This document shows, piece by piece, positions 2,611-21,564 of a DNA stretch of 24,824 nt. Each line of letters begins with the position of its first letter. Position 1 is the stretch's first letter. The position numbers were made by a program, and so were the translations under genes. Under the pieces are notes generated by a model that worked only from the letters and a program-made list of their open reading frames with translations, was not told the origin of the DNA and searched no databases. This DNA comes from a virus: IMG/VR virus record IMGVR_UViG_3300034272_000929, positions 1-24,824 of that record; one strand, 5' to 3'.

Positions 2611-3882
2611 TTAGAGTTTCAACTTACCCTGAGCAATGGCTCGATCCATCTCTTCGAGAAACGAATCAAACTCAGGGGTGCCCGGAGGAGGTGGATTCTT
2701 AATCCGCTCTTCGAGCGACGGCTTGTGGCCGGGGGGTGGCGCACTTCGAGCCGGGGCAGCAGCACTCGTAGTCAAGCGCGCCTGCCGGGCCTGCTGGACT
2801 TGAGCCGCACGAGGATCAACCTCGGGCTGGGATGGCTGCTGAGTGGGCTGTTGCTGCTGGACGTAACCGTGGGCTGCGTTGTACTGGCTTGCCCATTCAG
2901 GGTAGTAGTTCTTCAGAAGCTCTTTGTGGATAGACGGGCTGAAAGGGTCAGCCTGATACCACCGCTGAAGATGCTCTGGCATTTCCTGAAGGAACTGCTG
3001 CCAAGGACTCCACTTAGTCTTCGGATCAACGTAGTCGATGAAGTCAAGGGCTCCGGGCATCTGACGCTCAAGCTCGAAGCGGCTCTGTTCAACGAGACGA
3101 GCCTCCTCTTGCTCTGCCAACTTAACCTTCAGTTCTTCCACGGCAGACATATCAACCTTCGGAACCGAGCTAGCCATAAGCTGCTGGGTTTCGACAAGAG
3201 CATCTCGGGTCAGTTCGAGAAGATCGGCTAGCTCGGGGTCAGTCCCCTTGACTCGTGCGATCTTATCGGTTAGCTCTTGAATCTTACGAGCGTTCGCGGT
3301 CTGCGTGTTAGCTGGAGTAGCGGTCGGGTTCGACGGCTGGCTAACCGCTCCATCGCGGAGTCGTTGTTCAAGTTGTTCGCGCTGTTTGCGCTCTTCTTCG
3401 TACTTCTTCTGGAAAGCGGTCTGACGACCAATCTCAGAACGATACCGCTGCTCGTGGTACTCGCGAGCTTTACGCTCTTGTTCGAGCCGCTCTTCGACAA
3501 TCTTACGAACAGACGGGTCAAGGGAGTGGAGCCAGTCCTCGTTCGGGTTACTCGGTTCACTTTGGGAAGTTGCGCCTTCCTTGGCGCTTGTGCCGCCTTC
3601 CGCTGGAACCGTCGTGGATTGGTTCGCTTCGGTGTTCGCGGGAGGAACCTCCGGCTCATCTACCTTTACGCTACTTTCAACCCCACCACCACCACCGAGG
3701 AACTTCTGCAACTCTTCTTCAACCTTGGCAATCTCTTCAAGGTTGTTTGAAAGGAGAACCTGCTCGTACTTTTCAGCAAGCTGATTCTGAAGTTCTTCAC
3801 GGGAAAGCTCCGCTGCGGGAGTGTCCGGTGATTGGGACTGATTGTACTGTTGTTCAGTCTGATTGTCAATAGTGTCGCTCAT
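2611..3882 (-). CDS. Putative head scaffolding protein
   Basis: This 423-residue, highly charged protein is encoded between portal and major capsid, the usual place of the scaffold that guides procapsid assembly and leaves before DNA packaging. Residues about 20-65 and 125-185 are Glu/Lys/Gln-rich predicted coiled coils (for example ERLEQERKAREYHEQRYR). A run of five glycines follows the first coil. A more ordered part lies at about 285-345 (PGALDFIDYVDPKTKWSPWQ). After a Gln/Pro/Ala-rich linker, a short basic helical tail ends in LEEMDRAIAQGKLKL, similar to scaffold C-termini that bind the coat protein. The ATG is preceded by AAGGATC. A promoter-like site lies inside the first 15 codons. The role comes from position and composition. 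Confidence 0.88.
   Translation of the reverse strand: MSDTIDNQTEQQYNQSQSPDTPAAELSREELQNQLAEKYEQVLLSNNLEEIAKVEEELQKFLGGGGGVESSVKVDEPEVPPANTEANQSTTVPAEGGTSAKEGATSQSEPSNPNEDWLHSLDPSVRKIVEERLEQERKAREYHEQRYRSEIGRQTAFQKKYEEERKQREQLEQRLRDGAVSQPSNPTATPANTQTANARKIQELTDKIARVKGTDPELADLLELTRDALVETQQLMASSVPKVDMSAVEELKVKLAEQEEARLVEQSRFELERQMPGALDFIDYVDPKTKWSPWQQFLQEMPEHLQRWYQADPFSPSIHKELLKNYYPEWASQYNAAHGYVQQQQPTQQPSQPEVDPRAAQVQQARQARLTTSAAAPARSAPPPGHKPSLEERIKNPPPPGTPEFDSFLEEMDRAIAQGKLKL
3841..3869 (-). promoter_or_regulatory. Sigma70-type promoter embedded in the scaffold start
   Basis: On the minus strand, TTGACA (3864-3869) is followed after 17 bases by TACAAT (3841-3846). It lies inside the first codons of the scaffold gene. 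The 16 bases GAACAACAGTACAATC are identical to those of the second coding-embedded promoter at 14127-14155. Transcripts would begin near 3834 and could boost capsid genes downstream. Confidence 0.6.
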
Positions 3883-14114: not shown

Positions 14115-14558
14115 CTAGAGTCGCGGATTGTACTGTTGTTCGGGGGTGTTGTCAACTAGCATGGAGGGATTTCGTTCTCTCCACACCCGTAAGTGTTGAT
14201 GTGCTTTGGCTTCGATGTACGGGTCGTAGGGAAGGTCGTACCCGCTGGACCCATCCCAATCTTGGAAGTAATCCCGGTAGAACGTCACCTTTTCCGCGAT
14301 GTGTGAGTGCTCCCGTTGTAGTCGCACCAAGTCCTTGGAAATCCAATCGAAGTCGTAGTCCGAAATCGTTGACTGGTACATCCGGTAGTACAGGAACGAA
14401 TGAAGAACCACCCTTCGCCTATGTCGGTTGATGAGTTCCCCGATCTCTCGTTCGGATTCTTCAAGAGGTGGGTCGTAGATGATCCTCCAAGGCTCAGACC
14501 TCCTAGGAGCCTCCGTAAGCCCCTCTCCACCCTTACCCGCACCCTCGGCCTTACCCAC
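14115..14558 (-). CDS. Protein with a helical segment like the N-terminal (Ia) domain of NAD-dependent DNA ligase
   Basis: This 147-residue protein has a GTG start that overlaps the preceding gene by eight bases. Residues about 42-84 (INRHRRRVVLHSFLYYRMYQ, then STISDYDFDWISKDLVRLQ) match the plan of the LigA Ia domain, L-x-x-x-(L/V)-x-x-H-x-(F/Y)-L-Y-(H/Y)-x-x-D-x-x-I-x-D-A-x-Y-D followed by a Leu/Glu helix and EH. In LigA this domain binds NMN/NAD. The rest (FQDWDGSSGYDLPYDPYI) is a phage-type tail; no adenylation Lys domain is present. It is not a ligase by itself; it could bind NAD or NMN, or use the fold for something else. The last codons contain a promoter for the next gene. Confidence 0.85.
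   Translation of the reverse strand: MGKAEGAGKGGEGLTEAPRRSEPWRIIYDPPLEESEREIGELINRHRRRVVLHSFLYYRMYQSTISDYDFDWISKDLVRLQREHSHIAEKVTFYRDYFQDWDGSSGYDLPYDPYIEAKAHQHLRVWRERNPSMLVDNTPEQQYNPRL
14127..14155 (-). promoter_or_regulatory. Sigma70-type promoter for the glycine-rich fibre gene
   Basis: On the minus strand, TTGACA (14150-14155), 17 bases, TACAAT (14127-14132). It lies at the very end of the ligase-like gene, encoding its DNTPEQQYN. The start site would be near 14120, giving a leader of about 47 bases before the ATG at 14073. Confidence 0.7.
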
Positions 14559-15038: not shown

Positions 15039-15427
15039 TTGGTCAAATCCTCGGTGGAGACGGTAAGGGGTTTGGTTCGATCCATCGTACCGGGAAACTT
15101 GGACTCGGGACGAACGAACATCGAGAACTTCTCTCGGATAGCCCACGCACAAGGATCGGGAATCCGAATCTCGGAGGGATCGTCCCACGGCCAGATGGGA
15201 AGACCACGCCAGTATTCCCATCCCCACACTTGGAAATGCTTTCCCGTCTTGGCTTTGTGTTCGTCGCTCAAGCGGTTGAACTCGTACACGGCTTTCCAGT
15301 AATCCCGTCCCGTCTCGAAGTCGTGGGGGTTGGGGTACTTGATTCCATCCGGGGGTGGAACACCGAAGGGACTTGTCATGTCGAAGTTGTCGGGGACTGG
15401 TTCACACATCTCGGCTAGGGTTTTCAC
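15035..15427 (-). CDS. Trp/Pro-rich protein of unknown function
   Basis: This 130-residue protein has a GTG start that overlaps the upstream stop (GTGA), and its own stop overlaps the next gene in the same way. The centre is aromatic (GRDYWKAVYEFNRLSDEH, then FQVWGWEYWRGLPIWPWDD). Two cysteines are present. There are no membrane segments. I do not recognise the family. Position in the leading, coupled cluster suggests expression together with the ligase-like gene. Confidence 0.8.
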   Translation of the reverse strand: MKTLAEMCEPVPDNFDMTSPFGVPPPDGIKYPNPHDFETGRDYWKAVYEFNRLSDEHKAKTGKHFQVWGWEYWRGLPIWPWDDPSEIRIPDPCAWAIREKFSMFVRPESKFPGTMDRTKPLTVSTEDLTK

Positions 15428-15669
15428 TTCAGGCGCTCCTCGATTTCATCGACCAACTTTGCCATCACCGCGTAATCCGTAGAGCCGTTCTCGATCATCA
15501 GGCGGAGAATGTCCAAGTGGGATTTGATCCGATCAAGCATGATCTCACCAGTCGTGGATCGGTGACGCGCATGCTTACCGTCCCTTGCCAGCTTACGGCG
15601 GTAGTGGCGCTTTTGGTAGTAGTACTTGTCGGTGGTGTCCAGATCAGGGAATTCGGTGCACTTAGCCAT
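15424..15669 (-). CDS. Basic small protein, first gene of the minus-strand block
   Basis: This 81-residue protein starts at the ATG at 15669, with GGGAGGCG about 12 bases before. The longer frame from 15732 lacks a ribosome site. The N-terminal half is very basic (YYYQKRHYRRKLARDGKHAR), which could bind nucleic acid; the second half is helical and acidic (DYAVMAKLVDEIEERLK). It follows a long G-poor leader, so its synthesis may be controlled at the RNA level. Function unknown. Confidence 0.82.
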   Translation of the reverse strand: MAKCTEFPDLDTTDKYYYQKRHYRRKLARDGKHARHRSTTGEIMLDRIKSHLDILRLMIENGSTDYAVMAKLVDEIEERLK

Positions 15670-15940
15670 CGTCGTCTTTCGCCTCCCGGCGCAAGTGTTG
15701 TGGGGAGACGCCAAGATAATCACCCGGCGCAAGAGTGTCTAGTATCTTACAAACCGAAGGTTTAGACGGTATTAAGAAACTACGGAGTAGTAGAAGTATT
15801 AAGTCTTAAGGAAGGTTAGAGAGATTAAGAGTATTGGAAGAAGGGTAGATTACTCTTGGTAGGTTGAAGGAGTACTTCTTCGTAAGAAGAAGTCTTAAGT
15901 TCTTAAGGATAGTAGTATTAGTACTAGTATTAAGAGCTTT
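15670..15940 (-). promoter_or_regulatory. Long G-depleted transcribed leader with one hairpin; no gene in this stretch
   Basis: This is the probable 5' leader between the promoter at 15947-15975 and the first gene of the block. By hand count the minus-strand RNA has about 44 C and 11 G in the 160 bases 15781-15940, so it is C-over-G skewed, YC-rich and largely unstructured. Repeats of CTTAA, TACTACT and ACTTAATA occur. One perfect hairpin lies at 15874-15893 (8-bp stem ACTTCTTC/GAAGAAGT). These are the traits of Rho-utilisation (rut) leaders, so Rho-dependent attenuation is possible. No credible reading frame was seen from 15670 to 16065. Confidence 0.5.
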
Positions 15941-15946
15941 TATTCT

Positions 15947-15975
15947 TTGATACCACGGTTCAAGCAAGTTGTCAA
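15947..15975 (-). promoter_or_regulatory. Sigma70-type promoter for the minus-strand late block
   Basis: TTGACA (15970-15975) is followed after 17 bases by TATCAA (15947-15952) on the minus strand. Transcripts would start near 15940 and read the long G-poor leader, then the coupled genes from 15669 leftward. Confidence 0.65.
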
Positions 15976-15985
15976 GTCCCCCATC

Positions 15986-16027
15986 GCCAAGCAGAGCTTG
16001 GCTCTTATCACCCCCGCCAGAGGCGGG
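15986..16027. other. Pair of perfect short hairpins with AGA loops
   Basis: The first hairpin is GCCAAGC/GCTTGGC (15986-15992 and 15996-16002). The second is CCCGCC/GGCGGG (16013-16018 and 16022-16027). Both loops are AGA on the plus strand. They lie between the HNH-like gene and the promoter at 15947-15975. No U-run follows on either strand, so they are not standard terminators. They may mark an mRNA 3' end or a processing site. Confidence 0.5.
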
Positions 16028-16799: not shown

Positions 16800-16828
16800 A
16801 TTGTAGATGTTCTGTGCCCCCTTGTCAA
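16800..16828 (-). promoter_or_regulatory. Near-consensus sigma70 promoter for the HNH-like gene
   Basis: TTGACA (16823-16828), 17 bases, TACAAT (16800-16805) on the minus strand. The start would be near 16793, about 35 bases before the GTG at 16758, with the AAGGAG ribosome site in between. Confidence 0.78.
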
Positions 16829-20327: not shown

Positions 20328-20726
20328 ATGCCCATCGTCCAGACAGTAGACTACGCAGACTTTTCCGCTGCCTTTCGTCGTTACGAGCGCCGTGACCAGT
20401 TTGAAAACCTGCGCTGGCTTTATGACTACCTCGAAGAACTCTCCGATGATCTCGGCCAGCCTATCGAACTCGACGTTATCGCCTTGTGCTGCGAGTATTC
20501 CGAGGAATCGTGGGACGATGTAGCCAGCAACTGCTTTATACACAGCATCGACCTACCCGACCCCGCCGACTACTCCGATCTTGACGAGGGTGGCGAAGTC
20601 ATCCCGGGTACGCTCGATGAAGAAGCCTTCGCCGAAGCCCGACGCGAGGCGATCCTTGAGTATCTTCGGGATAACACGTCCGTATGTGGGTACGATGACG
20701 AAACGGTGTTGTATGCCCAGTTCTAA
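20328..20726 (+). CDS. Small acidic protein of a phage/bacterial family, function unknown
   Basis: This 132-residue protein contains VDYADFSAAFRRYERRDQFE, then LRWLYDYLEELSDDLGQPIE and LDVIALCCEYSEESWDD. This combination (Y-D-F-x-x-A-F, a helical LEEL segment, then E-L-D-V-I-A-x-C-C) recurs in many phage and bacterial proteins without known function. The C-terminal part ends in EYLRDNTSVCGYDDETVLYAQF (not all shown), typical of the family. A CGGAGATTGCT ribosome site precedes the ATG. Confidence 0.85.
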   Translation: MPIVQTVDYADFSAAFRRYERRDQFENLRWLYDYLEELSDDLGQPIELDVIALCCEYSEESWDDVASNCFIHSIDLPDPADYSDLDEGGEVIPGTLDEEAFAEARREAILEYLRDNTSVCGYDDETVLYAQF

Positions 20727-20745
20727 CCGAAAGGAGATAACCAAA

Positions 20746-21564
20746 ATGACCACCACTAAGAACCCGAAGTACGTTTACGTACTCCGCGTCAACGACCCGG
20801 AGAACAAGTCCCGCAACAAAACCTTTCAGTACCCGAAGAAGGGCACCGTGACCGCTCCCGATTGGATTCCCGACCCCGTGTGTGGTCGTGGTCTGCACGG
20901 GTGGGAGAATGGTGAAGGTGATTACTTGGCGGCAGATTGGCACGAAGACGGGGTTTGGCTTGTTCTCAGAGTGCTTGAATCTGACCTTGTGCGGCTTAAC
21001 GGTAAAGTGAAGTTCAAGACCGGCACTGTCGCCCACGCTGGCACCAAAGAAAGCGCAACGCGCTACATTTGGGAGAAGACAAAGGCTCCCCGTATTATTG
21101 GGTTGGTTCTCACGGGTGGGCATCGCTCCACCCTCACGGGTGGGGATAAATCCACCCTCACGGGTGGGGATAAATCCACCCTCACGGGTGGGCATCGCTC
21201 CACCCTCACGGGTGGGGATTACTCCACCCTCACGGGTGGGTATGGTTCCACCCTCACGGGTGGGGATAAATCCACCCTCACGGGTGGGGATAAATCCACC
21301 CTCACGGGTGGGCATCGCTCCACCCTCACGGGTGGGCATCACTCCACCCTCACGGGTGGGTATGGTTCCACCCTCACGGGTGGGGATTACTCCACCCTCA
21401 CGGGTGGGCATCGCTCCACCCTCACGGGTGGGTATGAATCCGTACTCTGTTGGCGCGTATGGGATGGTCAACGCCACCGCCTGCACGTCCGCTATACCGG
21501 CGAAGGCGGTATCGAATCAAATAAGGCATATCGGTTTGTAAATGGTGAAGTGGTGGTTGTGTGA
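20746..21564 (+). CDS. DUF7666-like protein with 14 ice-nucleation-like octapeptide repeats
   Basis: This 272-residue protein has AAAGGAG before the ATG. Residues 1 to about 115 form a domain with VCGRGLHGWENGEGDYLAAD, then VWLVLRVLESDLVRLNGKVK and FKTGTVAH, which looks like the phage domain DUF7666. Residues 122-233 are fourteen exact octapeptides LTGGxxST, with xx being HR, DK, DY, YG, HH or YE. Written as GYGSTLTG they closely match the AGYGSTxT repeat of bacterial ice-nucleation proteins, including the T-L-T motif on which their ice-organising face depends. This predicts a short beta-solenoid with a TxT ladder. The end (residues 234-272, finishing YRFVNGEVVVV) is a small cap. There is no signal peptide, so it probably works inside the cell or in virions. 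Ice activity is not implied with so few repeats. Confidence 0.9.
   Translation: MTTTKNPKYVYVLRVNDPENKSRNKTFQYPKKGTVTAPDWIPDPVCGRGLHGWENGEGDYLAADWHEDGVWLVLRVLESDLVRLNGKVKFKTGTVAHAGTKESATRYIWEKTKAPRIIGLVLTGGHRSTLTGGDKSTLTGGDKSTLTGGHRSTLTGGDYSTLTGGYGSTLTGGDKSTLTGGDKSTLTGGHRSTLTGGHHSTLTGGYGSTLTGGDYSTLTGGHRSTLTGGYESVLCWRVWDGQRHRLHVRYTGEGGIESNKAYRFVNGEVVVV
21109..21444 (+). repeat. Tandem 24-base array, 14 units
   Basis: The core CTCACGGGTGGG recurs at an exact 24-base period from 21109 to 21432. In each unit 18 of 24 bases are essentially invariant and only six (two codons) vary. Units 2-6 and 7-11 (120 bases each) differ at two bases only (gattac against catcac), showing a recent block duplication. 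The array is in frame in the gene at 20746. Confidence 0.95.

Follow-up and report, generated by a model that had tools for sequence, protein, structure and literature searches.

A G-poor untranslated leader RNA opening a podovirus operon: a candidate Rho-entry site with a boxA-like signal

The leader and its neighboring genes

The stretch of DNA analyzed here, which we call the window, is a 24.8-kb virus record (24,824 nt), a fragment of a larger phage genome; near relatives are longer, at 62.5 kb for G001 and 64.2 kb for G002. The phage is a podovirus, and the named phage closest to it by terminase is Stenotrophomonas phage StenR_269 (terL 45% identical). A minus-strand block encodes the major head protein, portal, terminase, endolysin, and tail proteins, and the operon is headed by an untranslated leader followed by four small genes of 81, 130, 118, and 147 aa. 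G001 proteins include a family A DNA polymerase and a ribonucleotide reductase. An RNA polymerase was not found among the scanned G001 proteins, so transcription and its termination are expected to depend on the host's RNA polymerase and Rho. Leaders were compared in the window and in G001, G002, and G003, with G004, partial at its 5' end, as a fifth leader for some counts. This gives four to five leaders in all, and those of G001, G003, and G004 are mutually close.

In order of transcription, two dyads and a promoter are followed by GCTCTTAA, a covarying hairpin, CCTACYAAG, a linker, an AAACC/GGTTT hairpin, GATACTAGACACTCTTGCG, about 60 nt of further sequence, and the first gene (Table 1). 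The good promoter claimed in the original prediction is a sigma70-type sequence found in the same place in all three relatives that reach it. The leaders behind this phage's other promoters are short and ordinary. The three late promoters (3841-3869, 14127-14155, and 15947-15975, minus strand) share, beyond both hexamers, a spacer motif near GAACnnCnG before the -10. The two dyads (15986-16027) have the same TCT loop and are identical in four contigs; lying beside the promoter, they are possible binding sites.

Table 1. Features of the leader locus and of the promoters of the block, in order of transcription
Feature	Position	Strand	Observation
sigma70-type promoter ahead of upstream gene, TTGACA-N17-TACAAT	16800..16828	-	also in G001, G002, G003, G005
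upstream gene P0001, 230 aa	16066..16758	-	N-terminal Cys/His cluster by eye; 91/74/70% identity in relatives
perfect dyad CCCGCC-TCT-GGCGGG (minus strand)	16013..16027	.	single copy per record; 4/4 contigs; ends 36-37 nt before -35
perfect dyad GCCAAGC-TCT-GCTTGGC (minus strand)	15986..16002	.	single copy per record; 4/4 contigs; ends 9-10 nt before -35
sigma70-type promoter TTGACA-N17-TATCAA	15947..15975	-	10/12 match; 4/4 contigs
whole untranslated leader	15670..15940	-	predicted start near 15940; base counts, no ATG
boxA-like GCTCTTAA	15930..15937	-	sole copy on either strand of the window
hairpin ACTTCTTC-TTAC-GAAGAAGT	15874..15893	-	stem covaries in relatives
leader motif CCTACYAAG	15855..15863	-	sense copies in the leader only, 4/4 contigs (1, 3, 1, 1)
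G-poor, nearly unstructured linker, 82 nt, candidate Rho entry site	15792..15873	-	C27 G3; composition and fold
small hairpin ACTAC-TCC-GTAGT	15779..15791	-	sequence, fold
small hairpin AAACC-TTC-GGTTT	15751..15763	-	stem conserved, loop variable
conserved element GATACTAGACACTCTTGCG at leader's end	15728..15746	-	same letters in 5 contigs, of which one matches the window fully in this region
first gene, 81 aa, basic	15424..15669	-	absent from relatives
next sigma70-type promoter inside block	14127..14155	-	without G-poor leader; also in relatives
further sigma70-type promoter inside block	3841..3869	-	without G-poor leader; also in relatives

The leader had been predicted to hold back the whole late block. 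This does not fit the promoters at 14155-14127 and 3869-3841, which lie inside the block without such a leader, so that the leader alone would decide only the first four small genes. The basic 81-aa protein had also been put forward as the factor that acts on the leader. It has no match with E < 0.2 in the three relatives that carry the leader, and this absence rules it out as a conserved factor. The gene upstream, P0001, always adjoins the leader in relatives. It has no Pfam or PHROG family match, including to antiterminator families such as Q, its best PDB sequence match has an E value of 0.21, and no occurrence in bacterial genomes was confirmed. The predicted structure is of low confidence (mean pLDDT 38.6), and the C-terminus is HNH-like by eye only.

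Three other features of the window were noted. A direct repeat, CCCGGCGCAAG(T/A)GT, occurs at 15685-15698 and 15723-15736, just ahead of the first gene. An ORF at 14115-14558 (minus strand) encodes a stand-alone Nlig-Ia domain (Pfam E 2e-24), which in NAD-dependent DNA ligase is the N-terminal part that binds NAD+, with the rest of the ligase absent; similar ORFs in G001 and G002 were judged by eye. A 327-aa protein (20581-21564, plus strand) has weak Pfam matches to ice-binding repeats and DUF7666, and a repeat-rich G001 protein resembles it by eye only.

Composition, structure, and conservation of the leader

The base count of the original prediction, 44 C versus 11 G at 15781-15940, is exact (minus strand A51 C44 G11 T54). 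Because 15670-15940 as a whole contains C74 and G38, the depletion is concentrated in about 15750-15945. A composition scan against the rest of the genome, proposed together with that prediction, returns the leader as the lowest-G 160-mer in all four records. In the window, the G-poorest 160-mer of both strands begins at 15784 and contains 10 G (next best 18); the same leader locus has 9, 9, and 8 G in G001, G002, and G003 (next best 17, 16, and 18), against record means of about 42.5 G per 160-mer. In 200 second-order Markov simulations of the window, the minimum on either strand was 15 G per 160-mer (mean of minima 24.3), so the observed 10 G exceeds the depletion expected by chance.

All five leaders, that of G004 being partial at its 5' end, contain 7-10% G and 19-26% C, with A+T at about 65-73%. 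In each of them the transcribed strand has more C than G, and this strand specificity favors selection on RNA rather than on DNA. When 80-mers are ranked by C:G, the leader comes first in the window and third in each of the other three records; the competing 80-mers include the antisense strand of the neighboring upstream gene, and the leader is extreme without being alone. As predicted, the leader contains no gene: none of the five leaders has an ATG. The sole ORF of at least 50 aa over the leader on the same strand (53 aa, TTG start, 15967-15806) has no counterpart found in the relatives (best tblastn E 0.29). The G-poor leader is genuine, unusual, and conserved.

The end of the upstream gene is biased the other way. 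The last 350 nt of the P0001 gene contain 51 C versus 83.7 expected (z -6.6) and 126 G versus 104.5 (z +5.3), and the C and G contents of its first 342 nt are ordinary for the protein (z 0.1 and 0.4), with expectations drawn from the codon usage of 15 other late genes. In the relatives, the region from 500 to 100 nt before the -10 end has 8-17 C and 27-42 G per 100 nt, and the first 200 nt of the leader have 5-14 G per 100. C depletion upstream thus flips to G depletion at the promoter. This flip is the strangest part of the locus, and no single known process accounts for it.

The original prediction described the leader as having few hairpins, which is accurate for the linker at 15873-15792 but not for the leader as a whole. 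The window linker has an MFE of -4.5, a lack of structure matched by 7 of 1500 stretches drawn at random from the record; across the leaders, linkers are 72-87 nt long with 3-4 G and MFEs of -1.1 to -4.5, versus record means of -17 to -22. The whole leader, in contrast, folds better than mononucleotide shuffles (z -4.3; -2.5 to -3.2 in four relatives), and this folding arises from small A-U-rich hairpins. A small hairpin precedes CCTACYAAG, a motif that also has one antisense copy in G002. Its stem is perfect in four of four leaders and ends 7-12 nt ahead of the motif, an arrangement with a chance of 0.005-0.0165 per leader in shuffles. In a hand alignment on CCTACYAAG, four of the eight stem pairs are altered on both sides. 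Among 500 shuffles, 13, 2, and 8 reach the three counts (double change, pair types) and none reaches the covariation score. Support for stem covariation is moderate, since the aligned rows were chosen as hairpins and number only four, with the G001 and G003 stem in common. An intrinsic terminator was not found at 15747-15940; a weak candidate with an interrupted tail, ATTATCTTGG, lies at 15737-15721.

Leader identity is 0.28-0.47 in five of the six contig pairs (shuffled pairs 0.27-0.38) and 0.74 for G001/G003, and it is near the shuffled level in four of the six. The flanks are 69-95% identical between relatives; pairwise values among the four contigs are 0.73-0.85 for the dyads and promoter, 0.87-0.95 for the leader-end element, and 0.69-0.94 toward the end of the upstream gene. 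At the level of sequence, then, the composition, layout, and hairpin geometry of the leader are kept while its letters have mostly changed, as would be expected of a site read by its composition. No close match to the leader was found among phage records (one 37-base stretch, E 0.4). Among 22 loci scanned for more distant counterparts, none stood out as clearly G-poor beyond the named relatives, the low-GC contigs being uninformative.

The boxA-like core GCTCTTAA lies at +10, +7, and +11 in three leaders (+10 in the window, +7 in G003), with 0-2 other sense copies per record, and is absent from the leader of G001, so that three of four leaders carry it. The same core occurs in lambda nutL, which reads cGCTCTTAAaaa. 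A boxA or nut site is expected to have a core GCTCTT(T/A)A; relative to GYTCTTTAANA, given as the gammaproteobacterial boxA consensus in PMC5725501, the leader sequence has one mismatch within the core. The G002 leader holds five copies of GCTCTTAA. Within this leader (L051, 6818-6909) lies a tandem array of a 14-nt unit, AGCTCTTGCTCTTA, in 6.5 copies with 13 GCTCTT, an expanded boxA-like array. A scan of viral contigs for a promoter with boxA gave no general link between boxA and downstream C over G (81 hits versus 56 control promoters, P 0.28; the scan matched at least 120 stretches, and the figures hold among the 80 loci listed). Two of the hits, in Pseudomonas phage TL (Bruynoghevirus; L124 and L144), are near-identical promoters followed by GCTCTTAA and CTTAAG-type hairpins. 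The C-over-G bias at these promoters is much weaker than in the leader, and a promoter-linked boxA core was not found in a PaP3-like record.

Interpretation of the G-poor leader

The reading we favor is that the leader is an untranslated entry site for Rho that also carries a boxA signal for Nus factors, and we put the probability of a role for Rho at roughly 40%. From the features above we infer a scheme of transcription start, Rho loading, termination, and timed relief by a factor. The host sigma70 promoter at 15975-15947 would start an untranslated RNA of about 270 nt, with a small hairpin and a boxA-like signal for Nus factors near its 5' end and a middle kept G-poor and single-stranded over 72-87 nt for Rho loading. 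Rho would then halt RNA polymerase in or just after the leader unless the polymerase were modified, whether through Nus factors acting at boxA or through a phage protein, for which P0001 (16066-16758) is the best candidate. Alternatively, escape from Rho could occur if ribosomes reach the first gene in time.

Several properties are consistent with this scheme. The linker is about as long as a Rho primary site. As in a rut site, C exceeds G over about 80 nt of untranslated RNA; the little secondary structure also expected of such a site is seen in the linker only. The hairpin adjacent to the boxA-like core is as expected of a boxA or nut site. Rho prefers YC pairs, and the window linker has 19 of them versus a mean of 11.2; the linkers of relatives have 7-12 versus record means of 9.8-11.9, with no clear enrichment. 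The Rho-leader idea of the original prediction survives in part: composition kept as sequence drifts, an untranslated leader, the 72-87-nt linker, and a lambda control described below speak for it, and the 81-aa factor, the gating of the whole block, and the YC content of relatives do not. What favors Rho entry is that it would explain the removal of G rather than C; boxA would explain the start of the leader, and neither explains everything.

A Nus-factor leader without attenuation, which we consider unlikely, would use boxA and the hairpin to load NusB/S10 and partners and make the polymerase Rho-resistant downstream, the G-poor stretch being open merely for RNA looping. The boxA core at the start of three of four leaders, the enrichment of GCTCTT in StenR_269, and the covarying hairpin all suit such a leader. 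The G001 leader, however, has no core, the translated genes of the operon should need little protection, and no reason emerges for a stretch that is poor in G rather than in C. A passive 5' UTR, in which the sole pressure ahead of the first gene is to avoid start codons, Shine-Dalgarno sites, and stable folds, would account for the missing ATG, the nearly unstructured linker, and a freely drifting sequence. We doubt this explanation as well, given that small hairpins are retained via compensatory changes, that the leader folds better than shuffles, and that the same phage's other promoters manage with short, ordinary leaders.

The A+T-rich island, the adjoining dyads, and the bias flip at the promoter could instead mark a site acting as DNA, for example an origin of replication or an unwinding element. 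We regard this as improbable: an unwinding element requires no strand asymmetry, and, the leading strand being G-rich, a bidirectional origin should show a flip of the opposite sign. In G001 and G002 the global minimum of the skew is some 6-7 kb distant, and neither sign nor position fits a replication origin at the leader. Quite improbable is a functionless local mutational bias of the transcribed strand. It could explain drift at fixed composition, but transcription-linked deamination is expected to deplete C, not G, on this strand, and the upstream gene is oppositely biased in its last 350 nt only. That the dyads are N4-type virion RNA polymerase promoters, making the locus a start of early transcription, is very improbable, and we reject it on the loop sequence and the absence of polymerase matches. 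In its favor, the 3-nt loops are closed by C-G, and StenR_269 has a putative virion polymerase, proposed by the authors of that genome on the grounds of its size, its helix content, and its lack of cysteine (PMC10747016); the related 2162-aa G001 protein also lacks cysteine. The loops, however, are TCT or AGA rather than the G..A that N4 promoters need (PMC4496689), and Pfam and PDB sequences gave no RNA polymerase match (in one polymerase search the control matched no genome, which makes that search alone uninformative).

Returning to the Rho-entry leader, a more elaborate version is a composition-coded switch, which is possible at best and rather unlikely. Rho would be repelled by the C-poor end of the upstream gene and drawn to the G-poor leader, where its loading would be forced with the sequence otherwise free; the upstream protein, acting at the dyads or at the boxA and hairpin, would release the operon. 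Rho sites lack a consensus and are therefore hard to find. If the leader is a Rho site, its conserved flanks, randomized letters, and kept composition would be direct evolutionary evidence of selection on composition, and the set of leaders would form a natural variant series in which Rho's requirements could be tested. Relief of the leader by the upstream protein, if it occurs, would represent a further type of phage antitermination.

Comparison with known systems

A comparable phage leader was not found in the open-access literature on phage late operons, Rho-dependent termination, and boxA. The lambda Q late leader is similar in that a promoter is followed by about 200 nt of leader, with the regulator gene just upstream. 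It differs in not being G-poor (53 G and 43 C of 200), and P0001 has no Q family match. The lambda Q late leader ends in an intrinsic terminator.

StenR_269, the nearest phage by terL, has an A+T-rich gap of 356 nt at a matching distance, about 7.8 kb before terL, with four GCTCTT versus 0.17 expected. This gap is only mildly G-poor (55 G and 73 C of 356), and the gene upstream of it has no significant similarity to P0001; a resemblance suspected by eye was rejected, as shuffled sequences reached the same score in 40% and 51% of cases.

In E. coli suhB, boxA overlaps rut in a G-poor leader, as reported in PMC5725501, so that boxA and rut, the latter a candidate here, again share one G-poor leader. 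According to the same source, the suhB rut lies near the 5' end, overlapping boxA, and acts with translational repression; the G-poor part here is about 200 nt long and well ahead of the first gene.

Lambda nutR/tR1 belongs to an early operon, is N-dependent, and has rut split around nut, in contrast to the leader, where the hairpin comes before the linker and none of the known antiterminator families is recognized. Both nonetheless combine a small hairpin with a boxA core inside untranslated RNA that is poor in G, and the same scan detects both: in lambda 37900-48502 (10.6 kb), just one of the six 160-mers with the least G is on the plus strand, and this one, 38218-38377, lies over the annotated rutA, nutR, and rutB.
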